The notes beneath the pieces are model-generated. The model saw nothing but the letters and a program-made list of their open reading frames with translations, did not search any database and had not been told where the DNA came from. From the NCBI GenBank assembly GCA_902509695.1, contig CABWYP010000001.1:95932-137844 (forward strand): 41,913 nucleotides of DNA, in the 5' to 3' direction. The position numbers and the translations under genes were made by a program. Within the stretch, counting starts at the first letter, position 1; the number at the start of each line of letters is the position of its first letter. Below are positions 4,952 to 25,568 of the stretch, piece by piece. The stretch comes from an uncultured Alphaproteobacteria bacterium (GTDB taxonomy: Bacteria; Pseudomonadota; Alphaproteobacteria; HIMB59).

Positions 4952-4954
4952 ATA

Positions 4955-4961: not shown

Positions 4962-5025
4962 GAATTCATAAATATAAATTCAATTTTAATATTTTCCAAT
5001 CCATTTTTAGACGCATATGGTACAA

Positions 5026-6377: not shown

Positions 6378-6380
6378 TAA

Positions 6381-6653
6381 ATGTTAGAAATTAAATGCCC
6401 TTACTGCGGTAAGAGATCTCAAAATGAATTTTCATATGGTGGAGACGGTAATATTAAAAGACCACCTCTAGGTGAAGAAATTAATACAAAAGACTGGGAC
6501 GATTTTGTTTACTTTAGAGACAACCCCAGAGGAAAACATACTGAGTTATGGCATCATGCTTCAGGTTGTAGACAATGGTTTAAAGCCTCTAGAGACACAG
6601 CAACTCACGAGATATTTGCAACTTGTAAGATGAACGAGGATTTTAATGTCTAA
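6381..6653 (+). CDS. mgdB: N-methylglutamate dehydrogenase / sarcosine oxidase delta-type subunit
   Basis: The small zinc-binding subunit of the same heterotetramer, 90 residues, the normal SoxD length. Cys6, Cys9, His59 and Cys63 match the four zinc ligands of tetrameric sarcosine oxidase in both identity and spacing. The C-terminal half keeps the family segment with GCRQWFKASRDT. It begins 3 bases after mgdA with no clear Shine-Dalgarno site, and overlaps the start of the alpha subunit gene by 8 bases, so translation is probably coupled. It has no catalytic role of its own and stabilises the assembly. Confidence 0.88.
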   Translation: MLEIKCPYCGKRSQNEFSYGGDGNIKRPPLGEEINTKDWDDFVYFRDNPRGKHTELWHHASGCRQWFKASRDTATHEIFATCKMNEDFNV

Positions 6654-9645: not shown

Positions 9646-9646
9646 A

Positions 9647-10240
9647 ATGACTGATATAAACGTTTCCGCTCTACACTTTGATCATAAATTAGGACTTTTT
9701 GGAGATTATGAGAGTAAATCTAACATTATTAAGATTTCAGAAGTAAAAGATTTGACTATAGTCCAAATAGCTAAATTTAAAAAAAGCCAAGTTAATATTG
9801 ACCAAATTAAAATTGACAATTTATCTTTACCTATAAGTTACCCTGAAGTTTCACATAATAATAACTTAAGAATTTTATGGACAGGTCCTGATACATGGAT
9901 ATGTGTTTCACAAAACTCCTCTACGCTTGATGAAATTAAAAAATATTGTAATGATAATGATTTTGGTATCACTGATTTATCGCACTCAAGAGCGGTTGTT
10001 CAAATACAAGGCGATCAGTCAATCGACGTCCTAAAAAAAGGCTCACCTTTTAATTTCAACCAAGATAATTTCTCTGTCAATAATAGTGCAAATACCTCCT
10101 ATAACGGTATTAACGTCATGATCGATTATTTAAATGACAATCCTAAAACATTTAATATTTATTCTCTTCGAAGTTTTGGTGGATCTTTTTATCACAGCAT
10201 CACTGACTCTGCATTAGAGTATGGATATGAAGGCATCTAA
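9647..10240 (+). CDS. mgdD: N-methylglutamate dehydrogenase / sarcosine oxidase gamma-type subunit
   Basis: The fourth subunit, 197 residues, typical of SoxG/MgdD. The start at 9647 lies one base after the alpha stop codon; a longer reading frame begins at 9590 but its first 19 residues lie inside mgdC and do not look like the family, while MTDINVSALHFDH does. The family is poorly conserved: recognisable parts are the segment ending WTGPDTWICV and the ITDLSHSRAVVQIQG stretch, which resemble the GcvT/SoxG fold. Gene order B-D-A-G matches sox and mgd operons. Five bases separate it from the amidotransferase gene that follows. Confidence 0.82.
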   Translation: MTDINVSALHFDHKLGLFGDYESKSNIIKISEVKDLTIVQIAKFKKSQVNIDQIKIDNLSLPISYPEVSHNNNLRILWTGPDTWICVSQNSSTLDEIKKYCNDNDFGITDLSHSRAVVQIQGDQSIDVLKKGSPFNFNQDNFSVNNSANTSYNGINVMIDYLNDNPKTFNIYSLRSFGGSFYHSITDSALEYGYEGI

Positions 10241-10245
10241 ATTAA

Positions 10246-11127
10246 ATGTGTGGTATTGTTGGAATTTATTTAAAAAATAAAAAATATCATAAAGACTTAG
10301 GAAAATTATTAACAGTTATGATGAATAACATGGCTACGAGAGGTCCTGACAGTGCTGGCTTTGCAATTTACTCTCCTGAAAAAAAAAAGAAATTTAAATA
10401 TTCAGTTTGTTTTCAAAAAAATGATTCAAAAAGCTTTAAAAAAATAATTTCCAAAGAAATTAAAGATGCCAAAATAAAAGTTATTTCTGATCACTTAGTT
10501 ATTGAAACATCTTCACACCCTTCAAAAGTACTCAATATTATTAAAAATTTTGAAGACTTAAATTTAGTTGGATACGGAAATTCTATAGAAATTTTTAAAC
10601 AAGTTGGAAATCCTAAAGATGTTGTTAAAGAATTTTCACTTGAGAAATTTTCAGGAACTCATGCCATAGGTCATACAAGAATGGCAACTGAAAGTGCCAT
10701 CACAACAGACGGATCTCATCCTTATTCTACTGGGGAAGACGAGTGTCTAGTTCATAATGGTTCTTTATCTAATCATAATAACCTCAGAAGAACGCTAAAA
10801 AAAAGAGGAGTTGAGATAAAATCTCAAAATGACACTGAAGTTGCAGCTGGTTATATCTCAGATGGTCTATCTAATAAAAAATCATTAAAAGAAACGCTTA
10901 TTGAAGGTTTAAAGGATTTAGATGGGTTCTACACTTTTATATCAGGTACAAAAAAAGGAATGGCAATTGTAAGAGATGAAATTGCGTGTAAACCTGCAGT
11001 CGTAGCTGAGACTAAAGACTATGTAGCTATAGCTTCTGAGTTTCAAGCAATGGCTCATCTACCTAATGTAAATAAAGCAAAAATTTTTGAACCAGAGCCT
11101 GGTTTAGTTTATAGCTGGGGCGAGTGA
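10246..11127 (+). CDS. mgsA: N-methylglutamate synthase subunit A (class II glutaminase-type), copy 1
   Basis: A 293-residue N-terminal-nucleophile amidotransferase domain. Cys2, exposed after Met removal (MCGIVG), is the expected nucleophile. Other family landmarks are RGPDSAGFAIYS near residue 33, GHTRMATES near residue 141 and HNGSLSNHNN near residue 167. In glutamate synthase the equivalent domain frees ammonia from glutamine; in N-methylglutamate synthase it is thought to free methylamine from gamma-glutamylmethylamide. It follows mgdD by five bases without a clear ribosome site, and its stop overlaps mgsB as ATGA. The Lys-rich stretch near residues 45-85 is shorter than in copy 2 at 16991-17935. 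Assignment to Mgs rather than another split glutamate synthase rests on the mgd genes before it. Confidence 0.82.
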   Translation: MCGIVGIYLKNKKYHKDLGKLLTVMMNNMATRGPDSAGFAIYSPEKKKKFKYSVCFQKNDSKSFKKIISKEIKDAKIKVISDHLVIETSSHPSKVLNIIKNFEDLNLVGYGNSIEIFKQVGNPKDVVKEFSLEKFSGTHAIGHTRMATESAITTDGSHPYSTGEDECLVHNGSLSNHNNLRRTLKKRGVEIKSQNDTEVAAGYISDGLSNKKSLKETLIEGLKDLDGFYTFISGTKKGMAIVRDEIACKPAVVAETKDYVAIASEFQAMAHLPNVNKAKIFEPEPGLVYSWGE

Positions 11128-11810
11128 TGAAATTAAATTTAAAAAAAGAAACATTAAGGAATGTTAATGAATTTCTTCAAAATGTTGATCTAAAATCTAA
11201 TAACCGTAGTTTTAAGATTACAAATCCTGATGGCAATCATGCTATCTGCGCTGGTCTTAAAGAGGAAATTGAAGTCACTATTGATGGTCATGCAGGATAC
11301 TATTGTGCTGGCATGAATATGAACGCAGATATTATTATCAACGGAAATGTTGGCACAGGAGTTGGTGAAAATATGATGTCAGGAACTGTTCATGTCAAAG
11401 GAAATGCTTCCCAATCTGCAGGAGCCACTGCCCATGGAGGAACATTAATCATTGATGGAAATACAAGTTCTAGATGCGGTATTTCTATGAAGGGTATTGA
11501 CATTATAGTGAAGGGATCAGTAGGACATATGTCGGCATTTATGGCACAGTCTGGAAATTTAGTCATATGCGGAGATGCTGGAGATGCCTTAGGAGATAGT
11601 ATTTATGAAGCTAAAATATTTATTATTGGAAAAGTAAAATCTCTTGGAGCGGATTGTGAAGAAAAAAAAATGAATGAAAAAGATAAAAAAATTCTTAAAT
11701 CTCTTTTAAAGAAAGCTGGTATTAATGAAAAAACATTCTCTAATTTTAAAATGTATGGATCAGCAAGAAAACTTTATAATTTTAATATAGATAATGTCTC
11801 GGAGTATTAA
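11124..11810 (+). CDS. mgsB: N-methylglutamate synthase subunit B (GltB C-terminal beta-helix type), copy 1
   Basis: A 228-residue protein of the GXGXG family, equal to the C-terminal right-handed beta-helix domain of glutamate synthase large subunit. The repeat is visible as successive turns with Gly-Asn-x-Gly (INGNVGTGVGEN, VKGNASQSAGA, VKGSVGHMSAF), followed by the LGADCEEKKMNE segment typical of GlxC. In glutamate synthase this domain is structural and helps form the tunnel between the amidotransferase and synthase sites. It lacks about 50 N-terminal residues present in the paralogue at 17923-18762. The start is ATG at 11124 overlapping mgsA; the next codon is also ATG. The stop overlaps the mgsC start by one base. 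Confidence 0.85.
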   Translation: MMKLNLKKETLRNVNEFLQNVDLKSNNRSFKITNPDGNHAICAGLKEEIEVTIDGHAGYYCAGMNMNADIIINGNVGTGVGENMMSGTVHVKGNASQSAGATAHGGTLIIDGNTSSRCGISMKGIDIIVKGSVGHMSAFMAQSGNLVICGDAGDALGDSIYEAKIFIIGKVKSLGADCEEKKMNEKDKKILKSLLKKAGINEKTFSNFKMYGSARKLYNFNIDNVSEY

Positions 11811-13132
11811 TGTCAGATAAATATAAAACAATTCCTAGAAAATCATGGACTTTTGATGATTATACTAATTCTGAAATCAGAAGAGCTGCAGAAACTGGTA
11901 TTTATGACATTCGAGGAGGAGGGTCAAAAAAACGACTACCTCATTTCGATGATTTGCTTTTCTTAGGAGCATCGATGTCACGATACCCCTTAGAAGGATA
12001 TAGAGAAAAATGTGACACAAGTGTTACACTTGGTACTAGATTTGCTAAAAACCCATTACACCTAGATATACCAATTACAATAGCGGGTATGAGTTTTGGT
12101 GCTTTGTCAGGACCTGCTAAAGAAGCTTTAGGAAGAGGTGCCAGTATAGCTGGAACCTCAACTACAACTGGTGATGGTGGAATGACACCTGAAGAAAGAG
12201 GTCAATCAAAACATCTTGTTTATCAATTACTGCCATCTAGATATGGAATGAATCCAGATGATTTAAGAAAAGCTGATGCTATTGAAGTTGTCATTGGTCA
12301 AGGTGCAAAACCAGGTGGCGGAGGAATGTTACTAGGTCAAAAAATAAGTGACCGGGTAGCAGAGATGCGAACTCTCCCTAAAGGCATTGATCAAAGATCA
12401 GCTTGTCGTCACCCAGATTGGACTGGTCCAGATGATCTAGAAATTAAGATATTAGAACTTAGAGAAATAACTGGTTGGAAAGTTCCAATTTTTGTTAAAC
12501 TCGCAGGGGCAAGACCATATTACGACACTGCTTTAGCAGTTAAAGCAGGAGCTGATGTAGTTGTGTTAGATGGAATGCAAGGTGGAACAGCTGCTACACA
12601 AGAGGTGTTTATTGAAAATGTAGGTCAACCAACATTAGCTTGCATTAGACCTGCTGTAGATGCTTTATTAGATTTAGATATGCATAGAAAAGTTCAGTTA
12701 ATTGTATCTGGAGGTATAAGAAATGGTGCAGATGTTGCTAAAGCTATGGCACTGGGCGCAGATGCAGTATCAATAGGCTCATCAGCACTTATTGCTTTAG
12801 GAGATAATGATCCTAAATGGGAAAATGATTACAAAAAATTAGGTAGTACAGCTGGAGCTTTTGATGATTGGCATGAAGGAAAAGATCCCTCTGGCATTAA
12901 TACACAAGACCCAGAATTAATGAAAAGATTAGATCCAGTAAAAGGTGGAAAAAGATTATCAAATTATTTAAAAGTAATGACTTTAGAAGCTCAAACTATA
13001 GCCAGGGCTTGCGGAAAAAACGATCTTCATAATTTAGAACCAGAGGACTTATGTGCACTTACTGTCGAGGCAGCAGCAATGGCAAGAGTTCCATTGGCAG
13101 GCACAGGATGGGTACCTGGTACTAAATTATAA
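11810..13132 (+). CDS. mgsC: N-methylglutamate synthase subunit C (FMN domain of glutamate synthase), copy 1, without Fe-S cysteines
   Basis: A 440-residue protein equal to the FMN-binding synthase domain of glutamate synthase (TIM barrel). Conserved parts include ITIAGMSFGALSGPAKEAL near residue 87, the stretch TTTGDGGMTPEE near 120, SGGIRNGADVAKAMALGADAV near 302 and the C-terminal LAGTGW. At residues 348-360 it reads AGAFDDWHEGKDP, where the copy 2 protein has AGFCYHCHTGRCP. The three cysteines expected to hold the 3Fe-4S cluster are replaced by F351, W354 and D359. The protein may therefore lack the cluster and take electrons in another way, or be flavin-only. The overlap with mgsB is one base. 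It ends the mgd-mgs operon. Family certain; methylamine-specific role inferred. Confidence 0.85.
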   Translation: MSDKYKTIPRKSWTFDDYTNSEIRRAAETGIYDIRGGGSKKRLPHFDDLLFLGASMSRYPLEGYREKCDTSVTLGTRFAKNPLHLDIPITIAGMSFGALSGPAKEALGRGASIAGTSTTTGDGGMTPEERGQSKHLVYQLLPSRYGMNPDDLRKADAIEVVIGQGAKPGGGGMLLGQKISDRVAEMRTLPKGIDQRSACRHPDWTGPDDLEIKILELREITGWKVPIFVKLAGARPYYDTALAVKAGADVVVLDGMQGGTAATQEVFIENVGQPTLACIRPAVDALLDLDMHRKVQLIVSGGIRNGADVAKAMALGADAVSIGSSALIALGDNDPKWENDYKKLGSTAGAFDDWHEGKDPSGINTQDPELMKRLDPVKGGKRLSNYLKVMTLEAQTIARACGKNDLHNLEPEDLCALTVEAAAMARVPLAGTGWVPGTKL

Positions 13133-13228: not shown

Positions 13229-13245
13229 GTTTCATAATATGAAAC
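13229..13245. promoter_or_regulatory. Palindromic operator 2 (probable IclR autoregulatory site)
   Basis: GTTTCATAATATGAAAC is a perfect inverted repeat 22 bases before the GTG start of the IclR-family gene. It is the exact reverse complement of operator 1 at 5048-5064. Confidence 0.75.
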
Positions 13246-13267: not shown

Positions 13268-14038
13268 GTGGCAGATGATCTGAAATATATTAATAAGTCT
13301 TTAGAAAAATCTTTTAAGATATTAGAGATTTTATCAAAATCCTTATTTCCATTAAAAGCTGCAAATATTTCTAGAAAAGCTTCTATCTCTAGAACCACAA
13401 CTTTTAGACTGTTATCTGTTTTATCTCATCTTGGATACATACATAAAAATAATAATACCAATACTTACATTATGGGACACAAGGCATTTCAATTTGGAGA
13501 AACCTCAGACTATCTACAATCTATCTCTGAAACTTCCAAAGAAATATTAGAAGAGATTTCCTCCAAAACAAATTTAATTACATATCTAGCTATGTTAGAG
13601 GGTTCACAAATTGTTCACTCTGATAAAATATCTAATAACACCAACGATGCATCTCATAGAACATTTCGTATGAGGCTAGATGCACATTGTTGTGCTCTAG
13701 GTAAAGTTATGCTTGCTTATAGGCCAGAGAATGAGATCGCATCCGTTTATAAAAGGTATAACTTTTATCCTCATACCAATAATACCCTCGCTAATCTTAA
13801 TGATTTAAAAAAACATCTATCTAAAATTAGAGCGCAAGGGTATGCACTAAATCACGGTGAGGCTTTTGATAATGTTTACGGAATTGGCGTTGCTATATTA
13901 GACAAAGATAAAAGGTCATTTGCTGGAATCTCTTTGTCAGGAAGTAAAAATATAATGAATCCAAAAACAATGATGGAGTTTGTTTCCCTGCTACAAAATG
14001 CTTCAATTAAGATATCTAAGCTTATTGTTGATAAATAA
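13268..14038 (+). CDS. IclR-family transcriptional regulator
   Basis: A 256-residue regulator with an N-terminal winged helix-turn-helix (about 10-75; the recognition part is ASISRTTTFRLLSVLSHLGY) and a C-terminal IclR effector domain (about 85-250, with RMRLDAHCCALGKVMLAYRP and the GVAILDKDKRSFAGISLSG segment). It probably senses an intermediate of methylated amine breakdown. The start is GTG at 13268, with AAGGAT upstream. The same 17-base palindrome lies just before this gene, before the operon at 14138 and between tmm and mgdA. The gene sits between the two amine modules, so it is the natural controller of both. Whether it activates or represses cannot be read directly; the site positions suggest activation of tmm and autorepression. 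Confidence 0.88.
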   Translation: MADDLKYINKSLEKSFKILEILSKSLFPLKAANISRKASISRTTTFRLLSVLSHLGYIHKNNNTNTYIMGHKAFQFGETSDYLQSISETSKEILEEISSKTNLITYLAMLEGSQIVHSDKISNNTNDASHRTFRMRLDAHCCALGKVMLAYRPENEIASVYKRYNFYPHTNNTLANLNDLKKHLSKIRAQGYALNHGEAFDNVYGIGVAILDKDKRSFAGISLSGSKNIMNPKTMMEFVSLLQNASIKISKLIVDK

Positions 14039-14058: not shown

Positions 14059-14075
14059 GTTTCATAATTTGAAAC
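14059..14075. promoter_or_regulatory. Palindromic operator 3 before the second amine module
   Basis: GTTTCATAATTTGAAAC matches operators 1 and 2 with a single mismatch in one arm. It lies 62 bases before the start of the FAD oxidoreductase gene and 20 bases after the IclR-family gene. Confidence 0.7.
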
Positions 14076-14137: not shown

Positions 14138-15484
14138 ATGAGCTTACCATCAAAGTGTGAATACTTAATAATTGGAGGAGGTATTCATGGACTCAGTACC
14201 GCTTGGCATTTATGCAAAAAATTAGCAAATAAAGGTCAACTCAAAGAAGACTCTGTTGTTGTTTTGGAAAAAACAAAAGTAGGCGAAGGAGCAACTAGTG
14301 TCGCTTGTGGTATTGTTAGAAATAATTATTACCAACCAGCTATGAGAAGACTTATGGCTCATTCAGTTAATGTCTGGAATGAAAACGCAGAAGCTTTAAC
14401 TTTTAGACGTGTTGGTTATATGCAAATTAATTCTCAGCTTATGCATGAAGGCATGTCAGAAGTTTATCACCAACAAAAAGAAATAGGGTATGACTCAACT
14501 TTTATTGAGGGAGCATCTGACTGTGATAAATATATGAAAGAAATGTTACCTGATTGGCAAGCACAAGGTATTACCTCAGTTCTACACGAAAAAAATTCAG
14601 GCTATGGTGCGAACCTAGGTGCAAACATGGGTTTTAAAAAATTAGCTGAGTCTGCTGGAGCTAAAATTTTAGAGGGAGTAGAAGCCACAAATTTAATTTC
14701 TTCAAATGGTAGTGGTGCTGTTTCTGCTGTTGAAACAAATCAAGGTACTATTGAATGTACCCAGTTAGTAGTAGCGGCTGGACCTTGGGTAAGAAAATTT
14801 TGGGAAATACTTGAACTTCCTAATTCTGTAAAAATTAAACAACCTGATGGATCTTATACTGATGAAATTCCTATGTGGTCTTACATGGCTTTAGAGGAGG
14901 GTGAACTCGAAGTTGATCCTCATAGTTATAAAACTGCACAGGGTAATGAATATCCCGTTATTCATGTTGATACAGAGTCTACACTTGTTTCTAACAAGAG
15001 TGGTGATGTTATTCATGAAAATGAGATGTGGGGTTTTTACTATAAACCTGATGTATACAGAAATGGTATTCAAGGAGGATCGTCTCCTTATGATGTAACA
15101 AAACCAGCAAGTGAAGTAAGCATTGATCCTTATGGACACAAGTCTAATGAGTTTCAACCACGTGCCTCATTTGAAGATAAATTCACATCTGCTATGGCTT
15201 TTTGTCAAAAGCAGTTTGATGGATGTCATGCAAAATATAAAAAGCAAAAAGCAGGTGGTATAGGCTGTGTGACACCAGATCGTTTTCCTGTATTCGACCA
15301 ATACAGAGAAAATGTATATATTATAGCTGACGCTAATCATGGATATAAAATGGCCGGTGTTGGTGATTTAGTATCTGATGAAGTACTTGGGAATAAGTCT
15401 GATATTCTAGAACCTTTCAGATTTTCCCGCTACGAAGAAGGGAAATTACATCCGGTCTCAAACAGTCCGTTCCCTTGGAGTTGA
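14138..15484 (+). CDS. FAD-dependent amine oxidase/dehydrogenase (DAO family, SoxB-like), second module
   Basis: A 448-residue DAO-family flavoprotein. The FAD Rossmann motif GGGIHGLSTAWHL begins near residue 13, and the stretch CGIVRNNYYQPAMRRLMAHS (about 57-76) parallels the GRNTTILRSNY part of SoxB. The C-terminal FAD motif ADANHGYKMAGVGDLVSDE is near residue 400. It is not a copy of mgdA: it has a long insertion between about residues 225 and 330 that I do not recognise, and no alpha, gamma or delta subunit gene accompanies it. It is the first gene of a six-gene operon containing a glutamine-synthetase-like ligase and a split glutamate synthase, so its likely job is to oxidise an N-substituted glutamate or related amine. 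GGAGG at 14124-14128 precedes the start. Substrate unknown. Confidence 0.78.
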   Translation: MSLPSKCEYLIIGGGIHGLSTAWHLCKKLANKGQLKEDSVVVLEKTKVGEGATSVACGIVRNNYYQPAMRRLMAHSVNVWNENAEALTFRRVGYMQINSQLMHEGMSEVYHQQKEIGYDSTFIEGASDCDKYMKEMLPDWQAQGITSVLHEKNSGYGANLGANMGFKKLAESAGAKILEGVEATNLISSNGSGAVSAVETNQGTIECTQLVVAAGPWVRKFWEILELPNSVKIKQPDGSYTDEIPMWSYMALEEGELEVDPHSYKTAQGNEYPVIHVDTESTLVSNKSGDVIHENEMWGFYYKPDVYRNGIQGGSSPYDVTKPASEVSIDPYGHKSNEFQPRASFEDKFTSAMAFCQKQFDGCHAKYKKQKAGGIGCVTPDRFPVFDQYRENVYIIADANHGYKMAGVGDLVSDEVLGNKSDILEPFRFSRYEEGKLHPVSNSPFPWS

Positions 15485-15487
15485 TGT

Positions 15488-15495
15488 AAAGGAGG
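15488..15495 (+). promoter_or_regulatory. Consensus Shine-Dalgarno site of the second-module ligase gene
   Basis: AAAGGAGG, seven bases before the ATG at 15503, is close to full complementarity to the 16S tail. It is unusually strong for this window and points to high expression. Confidence 0.6.
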
Positions 15496-15502
15496 AATAA
15501 AA

Positions 15503-16969
15503 ATGACAGCATTAGAAACATACGTTTCAGATAAAGAAAGAAATGAAAACGTAAAAAAAGTAAGAAAGAAAATTGATGAGTTAGGTATTGAATATATTTA
15601 CTATCAATTTATTTCTGTAACAGGAAGAATTGTTGGTAAAGGATACCCTGCAGACCATTGGGAAACTGTTGCACAAAAAGGCTTCCAATTAGTTTACGGA
15701 TCAACAGCAAACTTATTCACAAATAGAAATGGTGATTATATAGGCTATGGACCTGAGGCTCATGAATTAGTGGGTATTCCAGATCCAGAAACTTTCATTC
15801 AGTTACCATGGGATAAAAGAATTGCCAGAGTTTTTTGTACTTGCTTCAGAAACAGAGAAGAAGAAGAAGATCCAGGTGGATTTTTAACTTCTGATTGTAG
15901 AGGCAACCTTAAAAGACAACACAAAGAATTTAAAGAGAAACACGGTTTAGAATTACGCGCAGGCACTGAACCAGAAATGATGTGGTTGACTAAAAACGAA
16001 GATGGAACTCCAACTGGTTCTGGTTTTTCAAAGCCATATTGTTATCACATCGACCAATTTGAATCTTTAAGACCTGTTTATATGAAGGTTATCGAGTATT
16101 CCAGATTTATGGGTCTTGATATCATTCAAGGTGATCATGAAGATGCTCCTGGTCAATTAGAATTAAACTTTAATTATGATGATGTTTTAAGAAATGCAGA
16201 CAGGCTTTCTACTTACAGGCAGATTTGTGCTCAAGTAGCCAGAGAATTCAACTTGATCGCTTGTTTTTTATCTAAGCCTTTCGTTGGTGTTTCTGCCTCT
16301 GGTTGCCATACTAATATTTCCCTATGGAGAGATGGCGAAGATCAAATTATCCCTTGTGGTAATGACACAAAAGCACTTCCAGGAATGGAGCAAGTATACC
16401 ATCACAGAAGAGGTGGTGAAAACGTCTTTATGCCTGATACTGATGATAGAAAAATCCCTGGTAAAATTGGTTTAAACGCCATTGGTGGTGTAATGGAGCA
16501 CTTACCTGCTTTAACAGCTTTAGGGTCTTCAACAGTTAATTCATATAGAAGATTATGGGATGCTGGTTTTTGGGCACCTGTTTACGCTGACTGGGGTTAT
16601 CAAAACAGAACTTGTGGCTTAAGAGTTTCTGCGCCAGGTAGATTTGAATACCGTTCAGTAGACTCTGCTCACAATCCGTATTTAATGGGTTCAGGTTTGC
16701 TAGCTGCATTCGGTCATGGTATTGAAGAAAAAATGGACCCAGGCAAGCCAGAACAGCAAAATATGTATGAAGCTAATGCAGGTAAAGAAAAATTACCTAT
16801 GACACTTGGAGAAGCACTAGATAAGTTGGACAAAGATAAACTTATTCAAGGAGCCCTACCAGGAGACATGTTAAGAGTGTTCACTGAATACAAAAGAGAT
16901 GAATGGGAAGAATTCCTTGCAACTCCAACTCAGTGGGATCTTGATAAATATTTGGATTGCTTACCATAA
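15503..16969 (+). CDS. Glutamine-synthetase-family gamma-glutamyl-amine ligase, second module
   Basis: A 488-residue ATP-dependent ligase of the glutamine synthetase fold. The metal-binding motif GTEPEMMWL (E-x-E) is near residue 153, the GQLELNF motif near 214, and the SGCHTNISLW histidine near 268. NSYRRL near 345 keeps the arginine equal to E. coli GS Arg321, and RFEYRS near 381 keeps Glu357/Arg359. At the flap, where ammonia-using GS has Glu327 before Ala-Pro, it has Trp (GFWAP). This suggests an amine bulkier than ammonia. It lies between an FAD amine oxidase and a split glutamate synthase, so it likely makes the gamma-glutamyl amide used by the synthase. It is distinct from the gmaS-type protein at 21229-22536. 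Family certain; substrate unknown. Confidence 0.82.
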   Translation: MTALETYVSDKERNENVKKVRKKIDELGIEYIYYQFISVTGRIVGKGYPADHWETVAQKGFQLVYGSTANLFTNRNGDYIGYGPEAHELVGIPDPETFIQLPWDKRIARVFCTCFRNREEEEDPGGFLTSDCRGNLKRQHKEFKEKHGLELRAGTEPEMMWLTKNEDGTPTGSGFSKPYCYHIDQFESLRPVYMKVIEYSRFMGLDIIQGDHEDAPGQLELNFNYDDVLRNADRLSTYRQICAQVAREFNLIACFLSKPFVGVSASGCHTNISLWRDGEDQIIPCGNDTKALPGMEQVYHHRRGGENVFMPDTDDRKIPGKIGLNAIGGVMEHLPALTALGSSTVNSYRRLWDAGFWAPVYADWGYQNRTCGLRVSAPGRFEYRSVDSAHNPYLMGSGLLAAFGHGIEEKMDPGKPEQQNMYEANAGKEKLPMTLGEALDKLDKDKLIQGALPGDMLRVFTEYKRDEWEEFLATPTQWDLDKYLDCLP

Positions 16970-16990
16970 AATAAATATAAGGAGAAAAGT

Positions 16991-17935
16991 ATGTGTGGAA
17001 TAGCTGGAGTAATAAATAGAAAAAAGACTGTTAACGTCGGAGAGCAAATGCGTTTGATGTTACAAGGTATCAAACATAGAGGACCAGACTCAACTGGTTA
17101 TGCTATGTACGGCAAACCTAAGAAGGATGGATTCATTTTACGTTTTAAAGTATCAGAAAACGCTGCTGAGAAAGTAAACGTGAAGCCTGAAGATCCTGAA
17201 CTTCTTAAAGATCGTAAAAAACAAATTGATACTATTATGAAACAACATGGTGCTAAAATTACTAAACAGTCCTCCAGCACTCCATATGCTTTTAGATACG
17301 AGTTTTCATATAAAAGTGAAAATCTTGAAGAACTTGCAAAGGCTATCGAAACTGTAGAAAAGGCTGAAATCTTATCTATCGGTAAGGGTTTAGAACTTAT
17401 TAAAGATCTTGGCGATGCCACAACAGTAGCTGATCAATATGGATTAAATAAATTCATGGGAACCCATGGTATTGGCCATACTAGAATGGCTACTGAGTCT
17501 GATGTAGATATAAAATCTGCTCACCCTTACTGGGCTTTTCCATACCAAGACGTAGCTGTTGTTCATAACGGGCAATTAACAAATTATTGGGGTAATAGAA
17601 GAGTTCTAGAGAGAAGCGGATATAGATTTAATTCTAATTGCGACTCTGAAATTATTGCAGTTTATATTGCTGATAAGATGGCCAAAGGCATCAATCTAGA
17701 GCAAGCAATGCATGATAGTCTCGATGAATTGGACGGTGTTTTCACATATATTGTTTCCACAAAAGATCAATTAGGTATGGCTAAAGATTATATGGCCGCT
17801 AAGCCTATGGTGATCTATGAAAGCAAAGATGTCGTAGCTTGTGCATCAGAGGAAGTTGCTATAAGGAATATCTTCCCTCATGAAATTAAAACTTACGACC
17901 CATATGAAGCGGAGGTAAAAGTATGGCAGGTATAG
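16991..17935 (+). CDS. glxB: Class II glutaminase-type subunit (GlxB/MgsA-like), second module
   Basis: A 314-residue N-terminal-nucleophile amidotransferase, paralogue of mgsA at 10246-11127. Cys2 (MCGIAG) is the expected nucleophile; RGPDSTGYAMYG near residue 33, GHTRMATESDV near 158 and HNGQLTNYWGNRR near 184 are the matching landmarks. The middle region (about 60-110, Lys/Glu-rich) is longer than in mgsA. Predicted to release an amine or ammonia from a gamma-glutamyl amide and pass it to the FMN subunit. AAGGAG lies before the start, and the gene overlaps the next by 13 bases. The order amidotransferase, beta-helix, FMN domain is the same as in copy 1 and in rhizobial glxBCD. Confidence 0.85.
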   Translation: MCGIAGVINRKKTVNVGEQMRLMLQGIKHRGPDSTGYAMYGKPKKDGFILRFKVSENAAEKVNVKPEDPELLKDRKKQIDTIMKQHGAKITKQSSSTPYAFRYEFSYKSENLEELAKAIETVEKAEILSIGKGLELIKDLGDATTVADQYGLNKFMGTHGIGHTRMATESDVDIKSAHPYWAFPYQDVAVVHNGQLTNYWGNRRVLERSGYRFNSNCDSEIIAVYIADKMAKGINLEQAMHDSLDELDGVFTYIVSTKDQLGMAKDYMAAKPMVIYESKDVVACASEEVAIRNIFPHEIKTYDPYEAEVKVWQV

Positions 17936-18762
17936 CTAAAAAACAAAATACAGCTTTTTCTGATGAAAATTTATCAGGAAGAACTCAACAATTATACTTT
18001 AACCCTACTGAGGAAGAAAACTACACTTATTATGGTAATGTTGAAGTTGATTTCAATAAAAGAACATCTATTGATTGTACCGACTTAGAAGCTAGAACCT
18101 TAAATCAAAAAATAAGAGATGTGATGAAAAAAGGTTACGGAACTGTAGTTATAAAAAATCCTGGTGCTAAACACTCTTTAGGTGTTGGCATCCTAAATAA
18201 GCTCAATGTTATTTTTGAAGGAAGCTTGGGTTATTTCGGAGTGGGATGTATTGACGGTCCAACAGTTAGAATTAAAGGAAGAGTTGGTTGGTCATGTGCA
18301 GAAAATATGATGGCTGGAAAAGTTCTTGTTGAGAATAACGCTGGTTCATGTTTTGGCGCTGCTCTTAGAGGCGGTGATTTAATAGTAAAAGGTAATGCTG
18401 GTGCCAGAACTGGTATTGATATGAAAGGTGGTACTATCCTTATTGGTGGTAATGCTGGTGCCTTTACTGGTTTCATGATGCAAAGAGGAAGAATTATAGT
18501 CTGTGGCGATGTTAGCGCAAATATGGGTGACTCTATGTATGATGGAATGATTTTTGTTGGCGGAGAAGTTAAGTCTTTAGGAAGTGATTGTGTTGAAGGT
18601 GAAATGAACGAGTATGAAATTAGATGGCTTGAACAAAAACTTAACAATGCAGAAATCAATTCAAAGACACCTGTTAGCAAATTTAAAAAATATGTTTCTG
18701 GTAAGAAGCTTTGGAACTATGACAATTTAGAACCAAGTGAGAGAAAAGGTATATTAGGTTAG
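17923..18762 (+). CDS. glxC: GltB C-terminal-type beta-helix subunit (GlxC/MgsB-like), second module
   Basis: A 279-residue GXGXG-family protein, paralogue of mgsB at 11124-11810 but with about 50 extra N-terminal residues. The beta-helix repeat is very regular from about residue 85: FEGSLGYFGVG, IKGRVGWSCAEN, VENNAGSCFGAA, VKGNAGARTGIDMKGG, IGGNAGAFTGFM. Then comes the LGSDCVEGEMNEYE segment typical of GlxC. It should form the structural and tunnel part of a split glutamate-synthase-like enzyme with the genes on either side. Its start lies inside the preceding gene with GGAGG at 17911-17915, so it is strongly translated and coupled. No motif is missing. Confidence 0.87.
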   Translation: MAGIAKKQNTAFSDENLSGRTQQLYFNPTEEENYTYYGNVEVDFNKRTSIDCTDLEARTLNQKIRDVMKKGYGTVVIKNPGAKHSLGVGILNKLNVIFEGSLGYFGVGCIDGPTVRIKGRVGWSCAENMMAGKVLVENNAGSCFGAALRGGDLIVKGNAGARTGIDMKGGTILIGGNAGAFTGFMMQRGRIIVCGDVSANMGDSMYDGMIFVGGEVKSLGSDCVEGEMNEYEIRWLEQKLNNAEINSKTPVSKFKKYVSGKKLWNYDNLEPSERKGILG

Positions 18763-18770
18763 GAGATAAT

Positions 18771-20105
18771 ATGGCAAAAAGAAATACACAACTTTTAGGT
18801 AAAAACGCAATCTTCACTCCTGACGTCATGGATGATATCCATATTAAGGCGCAGTTAGGAAGATACAGAATGAGAGGAATGGCTCTCATGAAAAAAATCC
18901 CTCATTGGGATGATTTAACTTTTCTTCCAGGAACTTTAACACGTTTTGTTATTGAAGGTTATCGTGAGAAATGTTTAACAGAGACAGTCATTGGACCTCG
19001 TGCTAAAAATCCAATTAAACTTGATATTCCTGTCTACATTACAAGTATGAGTTTTGGTGCTCTTTCCTATGAAGCTAAAACTGCATTAGCTAGAGGCGCT
19101 ACTATGGCTGGCTCTGCTACTTGTTCTGGAGAAGGAGGAATGATCCCTGACGAAAGAAGATATTCCAATAAGTGGTATTATCAATGTATCCAATCTAGAT
19201 ATGGTTTTAACCCTCATCACGCACAGTTAGCTGACGCTATAGAGGTTTTTATTGGTCAAGGTCAAAAAGTAGGTATGGGTGGACATTTAATGGGTCAAAA
19301 AGTTACTGATCAGGTAGCTGAAATGAGATCATTACCTGCTGGTATTGATCAAAGATCACCTGCTAGACATCCTGACTGGATGGGCCCAGATGATCTTGCT
19401 TTAAAAGTAGCAGAATTAAGAGAGCTCACAGATAATCAAGTTCCTATTCAGCTTAAGCTAGGTGCATCAAGAGTTTATGATGATGTCAGAATGGCTGCTA
19501 AATGTGACCCTGACTCTATTTTCCTAGACTCAATGGAAGGCTCAACTGGTGCGGGACCACACGTTGCAGCTGCTAACACAGGTATTCCAGGTATTGGCGC
19601 AGTAAGAGAAGCAAGAAGAGCTTTAGATGATGTGGGTAAATCAGGTGAAGTAACTCTTGTTTATGCAGGTGGAATTAGAGACGGTGTTGATATGGCTAAA
19701 GCTTTGGCTTTGGGTGCTGATGCAATTGCTATTGGTACAGCCGGACTTATAGCTCTTAACTGTAATAAAGATATTCCAGAAGCAGATTTTGAAAAAGAAA
19801 TGGGAGTTGAAGCAGGATTTTGCTATCACTGTCACACAGGCAGATGTCCTGTTGGTGTAGCGACACAAGATCCAGTTTTGAGAAGTCGTTTAGATCCTAC
19901 AGAGGCTGCTGAAAGAGTTTATAACATGCTTAATACTATGACCTTAGAGGCACAGCTAATGGCTAGAGCTTGTGGTAAAACAAATCTTCATTCATTAGAG
20001 CCAGAAGATTTAGCTGCTCTAACAATGGAAGCATCAGCAATGGCGAAGGTTCCCCTAGCAGGAACAGATATGACCGTTGGTGTAAAAAACTACCATTCTA
20101 TTTAA
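18771..20105 (+). CDS. glxD: FMN/Fe-S glutamate synthase domain protein (GlxD/MgsC-like), second module
   Basis: A 444-residue FMN-binding synthase domain, paralogue of mgsC at 11810-13132. Shared landmarks are YITSMSFGALSYEAK near residue 86, CSGEGGMIPDE near 121, YAGGIRDGVDMAKALALGADAI near 301 and the final LAGTDM. Unlike copy 1 it keeps three cysteines, C351, C354 and C359, in FCYHCHTGRCPVG, the place where glutamate synthase holds its 3Fe-4S cluster (first spacing CxxC rather than the Cx5C of bacterial GltB). It should therefore be able to pass electrons from ferredoxin or a flavoprotein to FMN and reduce a 2-iminoglutarate intermediate. AGGAG precedes the start. Product may be glutamate or an N-substituted glutamate. 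Confidence 0.87.
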   Translation: MAKRNTQLLGKNAIFTPDVMDDIHIKAQLGRYRMRGMALMKKIPHWDDLTFLPGTLTRFVIEGYREKCLTETVIGPRAKNPIKLDIPVYITSMSFGALSYEAKTALARGATMAGSATCSGEGGMIPDERRYSNKWYYQCIQSRYGFNPHHAQLADAIEVFIGQGQKVGMGGHLMGQKVTDQVAEMRSLPAGIDQRSPARHPDWMGPDDLALKVAELRELTDNQVPIQLKLGASRVYDDVRMAAKCDPDSIFLDSMEGSTGAGPHVAAANTGIPGIGAVREARRALDDVGKSGEVTLVYAGGIRDGVDMAKALALGADAIAIGTAGLIALNCNKDIPEADFEKEMGVEAGFCYHCHTGRCPVGVATQDPVLRSRLDPTEAAERVYNMLNTMTLEAQLMARACGKTNLHSLEPEDLAALTMEASAMAKVPLAGTDMTVGVKNYHSI

Positions 20106-20117
20106 GGGAGGATAATT

Positions 20118-20615
20118 ATGGCAAAAGCAAAAAAAACTACAAAAACCAAAAAAGCTACAAAAACTAAAAAAGTCAGTAAGTCATTTTCTCTTGGAGTTAA
20201 AGGCGGTGGTTACAAAACTGTTGGCGGAGCTAAACTAAAAGATAAAGATATTAAGTCCGAAAGAGAAAAATCTATTGGTCAACATATTGGATATCGTTAC
20301 GATGTAAATTTGATACCTGATTACAAAAAATTAACCCCATTTTTAAAAACTTATATTGAGACTATGGGTTGGGATGATTTGAATTGGTTAGAAGATGTTC
20401 ATATGGGGTATGAAGGCGATAAGCCTGCCGTTTTTGACAGAAACGCTAACGGTTGGATTACCGTACCAACAAAGATGAAACTCCCTAATGGTCAACAGGA
20501 AAGAGATATGTTAGCAAGAGAACTTTTGATAAAGTTTCAAATGTCTTCAAATCACCCTCTCGTAGCTCTTAAAAAGACCTATGTTAAAGGTGACAACTTT
20601 AAACTTAACGAATAA
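20118..20615 (+). CDS. Unknown lysine-rich protein at the end of the second module
   Basis: A 165-residue protein I do not recognise. The first 22 residues are a low-complexity basic tail of Lys, Thr and Ala (three KxTKTKK-like units). The rest looks folded and soluble, with a Trp/Asp-rich patch (MGWDDLNWLEDVHMGYEGD) and no membrane helix or signal peptide. It starts 12 bases after glxD with a good GGGAGG site and is followed directly by a strong terminator, so it is the last gene of the operon. Its position suggests an accessory subunit of the ligase/synthase system or an electron-donor adaptor. The basic tail might bind nucleic acid or an acidic partner; both are guesses. Confidence 0.72.
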   Translation: MAKAKKTTKTKKATKTKKVSKSFSLGVKGGGYKTVGGAKLKDKDIKSEREKSIGQHIGYRYDVNLIPDYKKLTPFLKTYIETMGWDDLNWLEDVHMGYEGDKPAVFDRNANGWITVPTKMKLPNGQQERDMLARELLIKFQMSSNHPLVALKKTYVKGDNFKLNE

Positions 20616-20640: not shown

Positions 20641-20670
20641 AAAGCGGCTTATTTTAAGCCGCTTTTTTTT
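20641..20670. terminator. Bidirectional rho-independent terminator
   Basis: An 11-base perfect stem (AAAGCGGCTTA / TAAGCCGCTTT, loop TTT) followed by a run of eight or more T on the plus strand, and by T residues on the minus strand. It separates the second module from the convergent minus-strand genes. It is the best terminator in the window. Confidence 0.88.
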
Positions 20671-21259
20671 ATTCAGAAATTCGTATTAATTTTGACTTCT
20701 TCCAGTTAGGGATAAATTTAATGACATCAATATCTTTATTTAAACCAGGATTAAAATTAAGATTATGCCAAAAAACATTTTCCCATGCGTCTTCATCCTC
20801 ATCTAATTTAAATGGCGTACATTCAAGTCTATAATTTGTTGATAGATGTATAAAATCTAAAATACATTTCCCTTTTTTTAATATGCTTTCAATAAACTTA
20901 TTTTTTTTTGGAAAAGTCGCATATAAAGCATCACTAAATTTATATTTGTCTAAAAAAAATTCAGACGACAAAAATTTATTAATTTTATCGTAACGCTCTG
21001 CAGGATCATGTGTTTTTTTGAAATTATACTCAAACATTCTAGTTGTTTCTTCACAATCATTCTCAACTAGAATAACAATTATTTGAGAATATTCGTTGCC
21101 TTTATTGTCTAATAAGTGAGGCGTCATAGAAGTATTAGGTCTTCCACCTTGAGTTCTGAAGGCATTCATTCTTGACTGGCACTGCCAATCAAGAAATTTT
21201 TCCTGTAATACTTCTGGTGATAAATCTACTAACAATCTAAAGTTGTTTCTCTTTCCCAA
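20669..21259 (-). CDS. Unknown protein encoded directly after gmaS
   Basis: A 196-residue soluble protein of unknown function. The longest frame begins with TTG at 21259, overlapping the 3' end of gmaS by 31 bases; a second TTG at 21235 would give a smaller overlap. The next ATG (21169) would cut off the conserved-looking start LSPEVLQEKFLDWQCQSR, so a TTG start is preferred. The middle has GGRPNTSMTPHLL and then an Asp/Lys/Phe-rich alpha-helical part. No membrane helix, signal peptide or familiar enzyme motif. It shares the minus-strand transcription unit with gmaS, so a role in methylamine/gamma-glutamylmethylamide metabolism is likely but unproven. Confidence 0.68.
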   Translation of the reverse strand: MGKRNNFRLLVDLSPEVLQEKFLDWQCQSRMNAFRTQGGRPNTSMTPHLLDNKGNEYSQIIVILVENDCEETTRMFEYNFKKTHDPAERYDKINKFLSSEFFLDKYKFSDALYATFPKKNKFIESILKKGKCILDFIHLSTNYRLECTPFKLDEDEDAWENVFWHNLNFNPGLNKDIDVIKFIPNWKKSKLIRISE

Positions 21260-22536
21260 GTAGACAAATGTTTATTAAAAGTGGCCCAATCTTGATTTTT
21301 TAATTTCACGTAGCTATCAACTAAATTGTTACCAAATCCTTCCCTGATAATTTTTGATTTATCAAAATCTCTAATGGCATCTAATAAGTTCAGAGGTAGT
21401 TTTTTAACCTTACCTGCTTTATGACCTTCTGTGTACATATTAATGTCTAATCTTTTACCGGGATCTCTTTTTTTATCTATTCCGTCAAGTCCCAATAGTA
21501 TTATAGCTGCTTGTAACAGGTATGGATTAGTTGCCCCATCCATTAATCTTAGTTCAAATCTTCCAGCGCCTGGTACTCTAACCATATGAGTTCTATTATT
21601 ACCTGCCCAGGTAATTGAACTGGGAGCCCAAGTAGCACCAGATGTTGTCACACTTCCATTAATTCTTTTATAAGAATTTATAGTGGGATTGAAAATTGCT
21701 GCCATTTTATCTGCGCTCTCCATTATGCCACCTAAAAAATTATAACCTGTATTTGAGAGACCTAATTCATCTTTTTTATCTAAAAACATATTCTTTTTAC
21801 CTGTTTTATCCCAAACAGAAACATGACAATGACAACCATTTCCAGTTAAGTTTGTAAATGGTTTGGGCATGAATGTTGCTCTAAGTGAATGTTTCTCCGC
21901 AATTGATTTAACCATAAATTTAAAAAAAGCATGTCTATCAGCAGTTACAAGACAATCTGAAAAATCCCAATTCATTTCAAATTGACCATTAGCATCCTCA
22001 TGATCATTTTGATAAGGCGACCATCCTAAAGAAATCATAGAGTCACAAATTTCTGTAATTACATCGTACCTTCTCATCAAAGCAGATGAGTCATAGCAAG
22101 GTTTTGCTTGAATGTCTCTGTCATCAGAGAGTGCAGTTCCATCTTCATTCACTAAAAAAAATTCACACTCCACACCCGACTTCATAAAAAGATTTTTTTT
22201 AGATGCTTTTTCTATTTGTCTTTTTAAAGCTATTCTAGGCGATGCCTCAACTGGTTTTCCATCCATGTATAAGTCAGAAGCTACCCAAGCTATTTCTTTA
22301 TTCCAAGGGAGTTGGATAACGCTATCTCCATCAGGCATACCAAACATATCAGAGTCTGCTGGAGACATATCAAGCCAAGTAGCAAAGCCTGCAAAACCTG
22401 CACCATCAGATTGTATTTCATCAATAGCAGTGGCAGGCACTAATTTTGATCTAAGAACTCCAAATAGATCGACAAAACTCACAAAAAAATATTTAACACC
22501 ATTCTTTTTAGCAAATTGGTGAAGATTAACAGCCAT
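21229..22536 (-). CDS. gmaS: Gamma-glutamylmethylamide synthetase (GlnT, type III glutamine synthetase family)
   Basis: Predicted to join methylamine to glutamate with ATP, giving gamma-glutamylmethylamide, the substrate of the mgs enzymes. 435 residues, the usual length for GMAS/GlnT. Motifs: GVECEFFLV (E-x-E) near residue 121, NDHEDANGQFEMNWD near 177, the TGNGCHCHVSVWD histidine near 230, NSYKRI near 286, and RFELRL near 324 with Glu357/Arg359 equivalents. The flap Glu327 before Ala-Pro in ammonia-using GS is Trp here (ATWAP). The whole sequence has the look of rhizobial GlnT and marine GMAS proteins. AGAGGAGT precedes the start. Divergent from an amt gene 205 bases away. Substrate is inferred from family and the tmm, mgd and mgs neighbours; GlnT proteins in some species have been called glutamine synthetase. 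Confidence 0.85.
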   Translation of the reverse strand: MAVNLHQFAKKNGVKYFFVSFVDLFGVLRSKLVPATAIDEIQSDGAGFAGFATWLDMSPADSDMFGMPDGDSVIQLPWNKEIAWVASDLYMDGKPVEASPRIALKRQIEKASKKNLFMKSGVECEFFLVNEDGTALSDDRDIQAKPCYDSSALMRRYDVITEICDSMISLGWSPYQNDHEDANGQFEMNWDFSDCLVTADRHAFFKFMVKSIAEKHSLRATFMPKPFTNLTGNGCHCHVSVWDKTGKKNMFLDKKDELGLSNTGYNFLGGIMESADKMAAIFNPTINSYKRINGSVTTSGATWAPSSITWAGNNRTHMVRVPGAGRFELRLMDGATNPYLLQAAIILLGLDGIDKKRDPGKRLDINMYTEGHKAGKVKKLPLNLLDAIRDFDKSKIIREGFGNNLVDSYVKLKNQDWATFNKHLSTWERETTLDC

Positions 22537-24487: not shown

Positions 24488-25234
24488 TTGACGAAAATTC
24501 TAATCATCAATGGTTGGACGAAAGATGGTGACGACCAACATGTAAAGGCAAAATGTATTCTCCAAAAGAATATATTTATAAATCTAATTGAGAACTCTTC
24601 ACCAAATTTTAAATTTGAAACATGCGATACATATGAAGAAAGTGAAAATATCATTATAGACTCATATGATGCTTTTATGTGGACTGGTGGTGGTGGAAAT
24701 ATATACGAAAATAACAATCACAATTCTGCACAGCTCAAATTATGTGAAAAAATTATTCTAAAAGAAAAACCAATATGGGGAAGTTGCTGGGGAATGCAGG
24801 TCATAGTAACTGCTTTAGGAGGTAGGGTAATAAAAAGTCAAAAACCTGAATTTGGATACTCTGCAAAAATAAAAATTATTAATCCAATTTTGAACGACTC
24901 GATTTATAAAGGAAAAAATATTACTTTTGATGCACCAGCTCATCATTATGACATAGTTGATATAATACCCAAAGACTTTGAAATAATTTCAAAAAACGAT
25001 TTATGTACTCAGTCTATATACTCAAAGCCTAGAAATATTTTTTGCACTCAATACCATTCTGAGCTTCCATATAATTATATTGGAAACCTGATGAGGTTTT
25101 GGAAAAATAATTATAAAGAATTTTTTTCTGAATTTGAATTCAGTGAACTCCTAAAATATTTAGAAGATAAAGAAAAAGAAGATAAAGGCCAAAGATTGAT
25201 TGAAATTGAAAACTGGTTATCTACTCTAAATTAA
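24488..25234 (+). CDS. Class I glutamine amidotransferase-fold protein
   Basis: A 248-residue GATase1-fold enzyme. The catalytic triad is visible: Cys100 in the nucleophile elbow GSCWGMQ, and His190-x-Glu192 in QYHSEL. The FMWTGGGGN turn is near residue 60. It has no attached synthetase domain, so it is a stand-alone amidase resembling the GMP-synthase glutaminase domain or gamma-glutamyl-amide hydrolases. The start is TTG at 24488, directly after the preceding stop. It sits between amt and a glutamine-synthetase-like ligase gene, so it may split a gamma-glutamyl amide or supply ammonia. Substrate is unknown. Confidence 0.78.
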   Translation: MTKILIINGWTKDGDDQHVKAKCILQKNIFINLIENSSPNFKFETCDTYEESENIIIDSYDAFMWTGGGGNIYENNNHNSAQLKLCEKIILKEKPIWGSCWGMQVIVTALGGRVIKSQKPEFGYSAKIKIINPILNDSIYKGKNITFDAPAHHYDIVDIIPKDFEIISKNDLCTQSIYSKPRNIFCTQYHSELPYNYIGNLMRFWKNNYKEFFSEFEFSELLKYLEDKEKEDKGQRLIEIENWLSTLN

Positions 25235-25530
25235 TTTTCTTTAGTTGCGATTGTTAATAAAACCAGTGCTAATATGGAAACTAAACCTGAACCAACAGAA
25301 AAATAAAATATATTCAAAAGAGCGTAAACAAAAGTAGAAATATCAATAATTTTACGAGCAAATAAAGGGTTTGAGAGGCTTTGATCAATAAGAGTAACAA
25401 AAGAAAGTATTATAAATGTTGTAATAAAAGCTCTCTTATAAAACATCCTCCATTTTTTTTTAAATAAACTGATGTTCATGCAAAAATCTACCATAAAAAA
25501 ATAATTATTCTTAATGAAAAATTTTTCCAT
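25231..25530 (-). CDS. Small hypothetical membrane protein
   Basis: A 99-residue minus-strand frame convergent with the amidotransferase gene (4-base overlap of stops). Two hydrophobic segments are seen at about residues 34-48 and 67-94, the second followed by a short charged end, so a two-helix membrane protein is predicted. The true start is uncertain: Met13, Met18 and Met29 are alternatives, and GGAGG directly abuts the codon for Met29. No family recognised. Gap-filling position and hydrophobic pattern make it plausible but not certain. Confidence 0.45.
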   Translation of the reverse strand: MEKFFIKNNYFFMVDFCMNISLFKKKWRMFYKRAFITTFIILSFVTLIDQSLSNPLFARKIIDISTFVYALLNIFYFSVGSGLVSILALVLLTIATKEN

Positions 25531-25568
25531 CTGCTTATAATAAAATTTAAATATAAGGGGAGCTTCTC

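Follow-up and report, generated by a model that had tools for sequence, protein, structure and literature searches.

A conserved six-gene operon of SAR11 and allied Alphaproteobacteria as a candidate oxygenase-independent route for dimethylamine

The question raised by this locus is which amine is handled by a six-gene operon that lies beside a full set of methylamine genes. Few marine heterotrophs are as abundant as the SAR11 bacteria. The TMAO demethylase, tdm, has dimethylamine (DMA) as its product, and in Roseobacters DMA is oxidised by DmmDABC, an oxygen- and haem-dependent DMA monooxygenase. The dmmDABC genes were missing from all SAR11 genomes examined by PMC5520151, which reports no evidence of DMA oxidation by SAR11; the absence of the DMA monooxygenase is described in the literature as a "metabolic bottleneck". 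According to published genome analyses, SAR11 makes DMA from TMAO without a known DMA-using enzyme, which was offered to explain the DMA in marine aerosols (PMC5520151), and the use of TMAO nitrogen by SAR11 is an open question according to PMC8918994.

In the window, by which we mean the whole 41,913-nucleotide stretch of DNA analysed, all six predicted ORFs are present at 14138-20615, co-directional on the + strand and with matching coordinates, in the order DAO, GSx, xA, xB, xC and U165. Their domains agree with the logic of the original prediction, namely a ligase, a three-part synthase and a flavin dehydrogenase. In all 106 loci where both ends are present, GSx-xA-xB-xC-U165 are consecutive; in 96 of these loci DAO heads the row, giving all six genes. 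This gene order is far beyond chance, and the module recurs as a fixed operon in Alphaproteobacteria and in one Gammaproteobacterium. DAO is absent from two genomes (G237 and G523) despite the presence of GSx, and one further genome (G388) has a true gmaS upstream of xABC-U165, with neither GSx nor DAO. U165 is coded on hundreds of stretches, mostly from Pelagibacteraceae (SAR11), and in about 10% of the sampled Alphaproteobacteria. As to whether the cluster had already been characterised, parts of the module have been seen before, and no description of the six-gene module as such was found in the open-access journal literature searched.

The module was also predicted to have its own copy of an IclR operator. 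A DNA pattern search places this palindrome, TTTCATAATTTGAAAC, at 14060-14075, some 60-odd bases upstream of the DAO start. An IclR-family regulator gene (13268-14038, + strand; PF01614/PF09339) lies directly upstream of the module, with the same palindrome in its own promoter (13230-13245), and a further copy is found upstream of soxB (5049). These three sites compare with about one expected by chance when two mismatches are allowed; a reversed control pattern had no match in the whole genome. The operator upstream of DAO is kept in relatives of both families.

The full methylamine set expected beside the module was likewise found, outside the six-gene operon. It comprises gmaS, encoding gamma-glutamylmethylamide synthetase (21229-22536, − strand; matching the solved GmaS structure 7cql with 610 bits), classic mgsABC (10246-13132, + strand) and mgdABCD/soxBDAG (5121-10240, including a 90-aa soxD-like ORF at 6381-6653). 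A class I amidotransferase at 24488 goes with another GS-like gene. Among 43 module genomes, gmaS is present in 36 and absent in 7, and classic mgsABC is absent from 24. The module had been regarded as a second set; it is indeed distinct from the methylamine set, but since 24 of the 43 genomes carry it without classic mgsABC, it is the more widespread of the two and not a mere accessory. Moreover, 17 module genomes have gmaS without classic mgsABC; from these and the gmaS-xABC-U165 arrangement of G388, it can be reasoned that xABC probably serves methylamine as well.

The ligase GSx (15503-16969, + strand; 488 aa; PF00120/Gln-synt_C) was predicted to differ from gmaS. Its score with TIGR03105, a model named type III glutamate-ammonia ligase and used here as the GmaS marker, is 298 bits, below the cut-off of 469.6 bits, whereas the gmaS of the window scores 647 bits. 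Yet the catalytic residues are of the GmaS type. The best solved match is the glutamate-methylamine ligase 9qur, and when 17 GSx homologues of diverse lineages were aligned with RhGmaS, residues K30, Y147, Q175, D177, E179, E186, N188 and R312 were all kept. In the same alignment, the ammonia-specific Asp50 is replaced by Val and the glutamate of the Glu flap by Trp. According to PMC7948447, from which the residue roles are taken, Asp50 and the Glu flap are needed for ammonia and Asp177 is deprotonating. Because the GmaS amine pocket is complete and both catalytic acids of ammonia-type GS are gone, GSx is predicted from its residues to ligate a small amine, not ammonia. The domains Gln-synt_C and Glu_synthase, and a cysteine motif in xC that resembles those of redox-active glutamate synthases, might still suggest ammonia assimilation, with GSx as glutamine synthetase, xABC as glutamate synthase and DAO as an ammonia-releasing amine oxidase. 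However, the two acids are replaced in every GSx examined and the Asp177 of GmaS is kept (roles from PMC7948447), so that this GS/GOGAT reading is scarcely credible, and we rejected it. As the pocket residues are identical in GSx and GmaS, sequence cannot tell DMA from methylamine. GmaS itself glutamylates DMA, though weakly (Km 16 mM vs 27 uM for methylamine; PMC7948447), and the chemistry would therefore be possible in the GSx fold.

The three synthase genes encode, in the order of MgsABC, a class II glutamine amidotransferase subunit (xA, 16991-17935, + strand; PF13522), a structural subunit with the GXGXG feature (xB, 17923-18762, + strand; PF01493) and an FMN-type catalytic subunit of the glutamate-synthase type (xC, 18771-20105, + strand; Glu_synthase, PF01645). 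The xA product begins MCGI with the active-site Cys2, and CGI follows the start in 95 of 105 xA rows; all 134 xC sequences have the cysteine motif C-x2-C-x4-C. Identity between xABC and mgsABC is 34-52%, and xC and mgsC form separate clades, split by a branch with 100/99 support. Loss of the Fe-S cysteines was considered as a general difference between MgsC and xC and was dropped, as one mgsC subtype keeps them. A further difference between xABC and classic mgsABC is U165 (20118-20615, + strand; 165 aa), always located directly after xC and lacking with mgsABC. This is the lysine-rich unknown of the original prediction: in alignments the N-terminal tail is variable and Lys-rich, and the core, residues ~45-157, is strongly conserved. 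It has no match in Pfam, NCBIfam or plasmids; a structure search gave none either, a weak negative given the medium confidence of the model (pLDDT 65). U165 represents a family with no known relatives that accompanies an enzyme of the glutamate-synthase type, possibly as a fourth subunit of xABC or as a maturation factor.

The first gene, DAO (14138-15484, + strand; PF01266), encodes an FAD-dependent oxidoreductase. The dehydrogenase had been described as one chain with a large insertion. It is a single 448-aa chain with the DAO domain only, and so not a heterotetramer with a folate-binding GcvT-type subunit like MgdABCD, but the insertion was overstated: DAO exceeds monomeric sarcosine oxidase by ~50-60 aa, and its AlphaFold model (pLDDT 88.6) shows a continuous sarcosine-oxidase-type fold. 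The nearest solved structures are sarcosine oxidases and dimethylglycine dehydrogenase, and Foldseek with the model returns the beta subunit of heterotetrameric sarcosine oxidase (E ~6e-25) and also dimethylglycine oxidase/dehydrogenase. Judged from sequence and model, DAO appears to be an N-demethylating enzyme of the sarcosine oxidase/dimethylglycine dehydrogenase kind. Such enzymes free C1 units, which speaks against the suggestion that the module assimilates nitrogen alone and releases no C1. In a genome that lacks GSx, a DAO homologue adjoins a Rieske pair resembling glycine betaine monooxygenase, a context in which dimethylated amino acids are produced.

What points to a particular amine is the genomic context. 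In SAR11 the module is directly downstream of tdm, and it adjoins tdm in many lineages; a tdm-like gene lies within 8 kb in 40 of the 70 named loci with GSx, and the co-occurrence of GSx and tdm over 385 genomes has p = 3e-26. Among 35 tdm-bearing genomes, a strong haem N-demethylase match was found in none of the 27 with the module vs 6 of the 8 without it (p = 2e-5), and at family level 13 vs 5 families do not overlap (p = 5e-4); the marker, PF11927, covers haem N-demethylases in general and not Dmm alone, and many of the genomes counted are incomplete. Strong PF11927 matches are also missing from all 37 GSx genomes and from the module itself. HODM matches in the genus of the window, which are short and weak (48-59 bits), were considered as a possible dmm but not counted; the one in the window's own genome adjoins a TauE and a dipeptidase gene. 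Because the module adjoins tdm and replaces dmm, the context points to DMA, and the predicted handling of another amine, which is probable, can be narrowed accordingly.

The same evidence bears on two other substrates. The wider GSx family is diverse, as judged from GSx-like paralogues (54-63%) that occur elsewhere in tandem with a second GS and from the nearest plasmid relative (53%), which adjoins aldehyde dehydrogenases and class I amidotransferases. Together with the ~10 module genomes that lack tdm, these varied settings would fit another amine, e.g., a polyamine, ethanolamine or other alkylamine, with tdm nearby merely through a shared amine regulon. We consider this quite improbable in view of the strong co-occurrence with tdm, the complementarity to the haem demethylase marker and an operon with neither an aldehyde dehydrogenase nor a PuuD-type hydrolase; a polyamine route in particular is held unlikely, as SAR11 is reported to handle putrescine by transamination and not gamma-glutamylation (PMC8437039). 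Alternatively, the module could be a second, stand-alone methylamine pathway. GSx would then be an isozyme of GmaS, with xABC-U165 acting as a variant form of N-methylglutamate synthase and DAO as an N-methylglutamate dehydrogenase made of one chain. The full methylamine pocket of GSx and the pairing of gmaS with xABC-U165 in G388 are in keeping with it; so are the 17 genomes in which xABC-U165 must serve gmaS and the 7 without gmaS, where a stand-alone route fits. Such redundancy is hard to explain, however, in the 36 of 43 module genomes, small streamlined SAR11-type ones included, that keep gmaS with GSx or xABC, and neither the strong association with tdm nor the mutual exclusion with the haem demethylase marker would be accounted for, making this reading rather unlikely.

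On balance, we lean towards the module being a self-contained gamma-glutamyl-amine/N-alkylglutamate route, its substrate most likely DMA, in place of DmmDABC. The amine-ligase/N-alkylglutamate logic is well supported; we infer DMA from context, and likewise the intermediates, the order of steps and the role of U165. In this scheme GSx, as gamma-glutamyl-dimethylamide synthetase, would use ATP to join DMA and glutamate. The amidotransferase domain of xABC, with U165 as obligate extra subunit, would free the amine from gamma-glutamyl-dimethylamide, and xABC would move it on FMN to the alpha-carbon of 2-oxoglutarate, giving N,N-dimethylglutamate. DAO, as N,N-dimethyl-/N-methylglutamate dehydrogenase (demethylase), would oxidatively demethylate this to N-methylglutamate, which DAO or MgdABCD could convert to glutamate, with C1 units passing to the folate pool. 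We know of no precedent for a tertiary amine made by an N-methylglutamate-synthase-type enzyme, and the open-access journal literature searched had nothing relevant on bacterial glutamyl-dimethylamide or dimethylglutamate, even when the searches were broadened. We therefore put forward only tentatively that SAR11 and allied Alphaproteobacteria possess a new oxygenase-independent DMA pathway, in which xABC and U165 form a four-part synthase and the intermediates are gamma-glutamyl-dimethylamide and N,N-dimethylglutamate, such that the DMA bottleneck reflects an unrecognised pathway and not a missing capacity. If true, the operon between tdm and gmaS, replacing dmm, would close the DMA pathway of SAR11 and allow it to draw nitrogen from TMA and TMAO; U165 would be a new metagenome marker for DMA use, which dmm counts alone would greatly underestimate.

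Of the proteins already in the literature, SAR11_1304 was described as a monomeric sarcosine oxidase whose substrate was not known (PMC3160333). Judging from the described gene order, it very probably corresponds to DAO in HTCC1062: upstream lies the aminomethyltransferase SAR11_1303, whose position is that of tdm, and downstream lie mgsABC/gmaS (SAR11_1313-1316). That paper, however, made no tie to ligase or synthase genes or to DMA. In Puu-type pathways (PuuABCD, Streptomyces GlnA3/GlnA4), a GS-like ligase likewise opens amine catabolism by gamma-glutamylation, but the module passes the amide to a glutamate-synthase-like enzyme, and neither a PuuC aldehyde dehydrogenase nor a PuuD class I (gamma-glutamyl) hydrolase was found among the six genes or their invariant neighbours. 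DmmDABC of Ruegeria pomeroyi occupies the same spot in a methylated-amine neighbourhood, near tdm, gmaS and amt; for example, in the Roseobacter-like genome of locus L174 the tdm, tmm, gmaS, mgs, amt neighbourhood holds genes at the Dmm position and not the module. The two systems have no proteins in common, and the module lacks the haem N-demethylase, the flavin reductase and the oxygen chemistry. The N-methylglutamate pathway for methylamine (GmaS+MgsABC+MgdABCD) also ligates the amine to glutamate and employs a three-part glutamate-synthase-like enzyme and a flavin N-demethylating dehydrogenase, with the same amine-pocket residues in GmaS as in GSx. In contrast to that pathway, the module has a ligase below the TIGR03105 cut-off, a synthase in a clade of its own and a single-chain dehydrogenase without a folate-binding subunit, and it adds U165.

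The module is real and widely conserved. Its six genes (14138-20615, plus strand) are present in the window precisely as first noted, the window being a 41.9-kb part (G000:C1:95932-137844) of a 1.0-Mb genome that is about 65% complete. Domain searches assigned, in gene order, a sarcosine-oxidase-fold flavoprotein (DAO; PF01266), a 488-residue GS-like ligase (GSx; Gln-synt_C) and a three-part glutamate-synthase-like enzyme (xA, xB and xC; class II GATase, GXGXG and Glu_synthase), and yielded no family for the final 165-residue protein, U165. The classic methylamine genes are likewise in the window: tmm (3617-4999, minus strand), the mgdABCD-like soxB/soxD/soxA/soxG (5121-10240), mgsABC (10246-13132) and gmaS (21229-22536, minus strand). 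The TMAO demethylase gene tdm (C1:82791-85085; NF053776, 1154 bits) lies ~11 kb upstream of the window. Between U165 and gmaS, a 196-residue protein with no Pfam or NCBIfam match is encoded at 20669-21259 (minus strand); weak homologues (25-37%) adjoin the module in many alphaproteobacterial families, and none was detected next to it in SAR11. Another gamma-glutamylation-like set lies at 24488-27983, next to amt: a class I amidotransferase, a MetX-like hydrolase and, as a third GS-like ligase, a 465-residue protein whose pocket residues differ.

A genome search bore out the gene order: GSx-xA-xB-xC-U165 is a fixed operon, consecutive and co-directional in 106 of 106 loci where both ends (GSx and U165) were seen, with DAO directly upstream of GSx in 96. 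U165 is encoded by 64 of 162 genomes from the window's order, 37 of 385 sampled Alphaproteobacteria, 2 of 299 of the phylum sample and at least 580 genome_contigs stretches, among the matches listed chiefly from Pelagibacteraceae, plus Geminicoccaceae and one Granulosicoccaceae. The usual SAR11 order, tdm - small ORF - DAO-GSx-xA-xB-xC-U165 - amt - optional mgsABC - gmaS, matches the HTCC1062 region when compared at locus tags SAR11_1302 (transporter), 1303 (aminomethyltransferase), 1304 (monomeric sarcosine oxidase), 1313-1315 (glxBCD) and 1316 (glnT) (PMC3160333). One genome of the window's genus (G156, 94% complete) keeps tdm at a contig end, but U165, GSx and DAO all went undetected in it, and it may have lost the module recently.

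The ligase is of the GmaS type, its best solved relatives being 9qur and 7cql. In an alignment of 17 GSx sequences anchored on the numbering of RhGmaS, K30, Y147, Q175, D177, E179, E186, N188, H235, R288, R312 and E325 are kept; the Asp50 position is Val and the Glu flap Trp, in line with GmaS, which has Ala and Trp, and Gly231 to Ala is the sole other constant change from RhGmaS among the positions compared. Read through the catalytic mechanism established on RhGmaS (PMC7948447), these residues make GSx a small-amine ligase rather than one that uses ammonia; the pocket residues alone do not decide between dimethylamine (DMA) and methylamine. GSx-like paralogues (53-63%) at L191-L194 and on a Paracoccus sp. 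TOH plasmid (L008:19866-21452) each form a tandem pair with another GS that is distant from them, without xABC or U165, which suggests related two-GS amine pathways with other substrates.

The synthase is a distinct type: xA, xB and xC share 34, 39 and 52% identity with the same window's mgsABC, and xC and mgsC each fall in a clade of their own (100/99). The N-terminal nucleophile of xA is Cys2, and every xC carries a C-x2-C-x4-C motif, whose cysteines the window's mgsC lacks and another mgsC subtype has. Both subtypes occur in one genus, the cysteines missing in the window (11810-13132) and kept in G111 (L032:16850-18169), where an additional 428-residue ORF lies between iclR and mgsC. U165 has a strongly conserved core and a variable Lys-rich tail; a structure search with its medium-confidence predicted model gave no match.

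Natural gene combinations bear on the roles of these parts. In G388, which has no GSx, DAO or tdm, a true gmaS immediately precedes xABC-U165, with mgdABCD nearby; U165 therefore accompanies the synthase, the choice of amine presumably falls to the ligase, and a genome that lacks tdm can do without GSx and DAO. Classic mgsC is missing from 24 of 43 module genomes, 17 of which have gmaS, so that xABC must serve gmaS there; in the seven with neither, the module stands alone.

The operator copy predicted for the module was also found: the palindrome TTTCATAWTWTGAAAC precedes DAO, soxB and iclR, and the reversed control pattern has zero matches in the genome. The TTTCA-N5-TGAAAC site before DAO is kept in relatives of both families while its middle bases drift, as would be expected of a real operator. 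Since the mgd genes share this palindrome, the DAO-U165 operon is probably under their IclR regulator. A fourth copy (C1:37560-37576; L188:4562) stands ahead of genes for a TPP enzyme, a GntR regulator and the tripartite tricarboxylate transporter TctC, TctB and TctA, and the regulon may thus reach past methylated amines.

Tdm converts TMAO to DMA, and GSx and tdm share 27 genomes of the 385 sampled (p = 3e-26). Among the 35 tdm genomes, a strong match to PF11927, the haem N-demethylase marker, was found in 0 of 27 with GSx versus 6 of 8 without (p = 2e-5); by family, 13 have the module, 5 the demethylase and none both (p = 5e-4), all in plain tests that ignore finer phylogeny. In the same neighbourhood, the Roseobacter-like G411 has tdm, tmm, gmaS, mgsABC and amt, then a GcvT-type gene and three genes at the position of the DMA monooxygenase Dmm, one with a PF11927 match. 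This complementarity is a pattern of non-orthologous replacement, the module replacing Dmm. It agrees with the report that all SAR11 genomes lack dmmDABC (PMC5520151) and with the question left in PMC8918994 of whether nitrogen from TMAO is available to SAR11. On balance, we favor DMA as the module's amine. In the window's own genome, a 396-residue GcvT-type protein (L189:7531-8721) follows tdm in a position resembling that of DmmD, although dmmABC was not found; it could serve as an acceptor for formaldehyde produced by Tdm or DAO.

DAO has a demethylase fold, its AlphaFold2 model (pLDDT 88.6) matching sarcosine oxidases, with dimethylglycine oxidase/dehydrogenase matches ranking lower. G319, where tdm and a strong haem demethylase occur but GSx and U165 do not, carries a DAO homologue adjoining a Rieske oxygenase/reductase pair closest to glycine betaine monooxygenase, a setting consistent with N-methylated amino acids as DAO substrates. 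By family chemistry, GSx would join DMA to glutamate with ATP, giving gamma-glutamyl-dimethylamide; xABC with U165 would hydrolyze the amide and move the amine onto 2-oxoglutarate, giving N,N-dimethylglutamate; and DAO, with or without MgdABCD, would demethylate this to N-methylglutamate and glutamate, the C1 units passing to folate. A route through N,N-dimethylglutamate is plausible, although we hold it tentatively, the weakest links being tertiary amine formation and DMA rather than methylamine as the preferred substrate. The case is strong that the module works as the methylamine pathway does, on a small methylated amine. No prior description was found in the open literature searched, and on that scope the module is new; set against the gamma-glutamyl-amine/N-methylglutamate pathways, it is a variant of that type.
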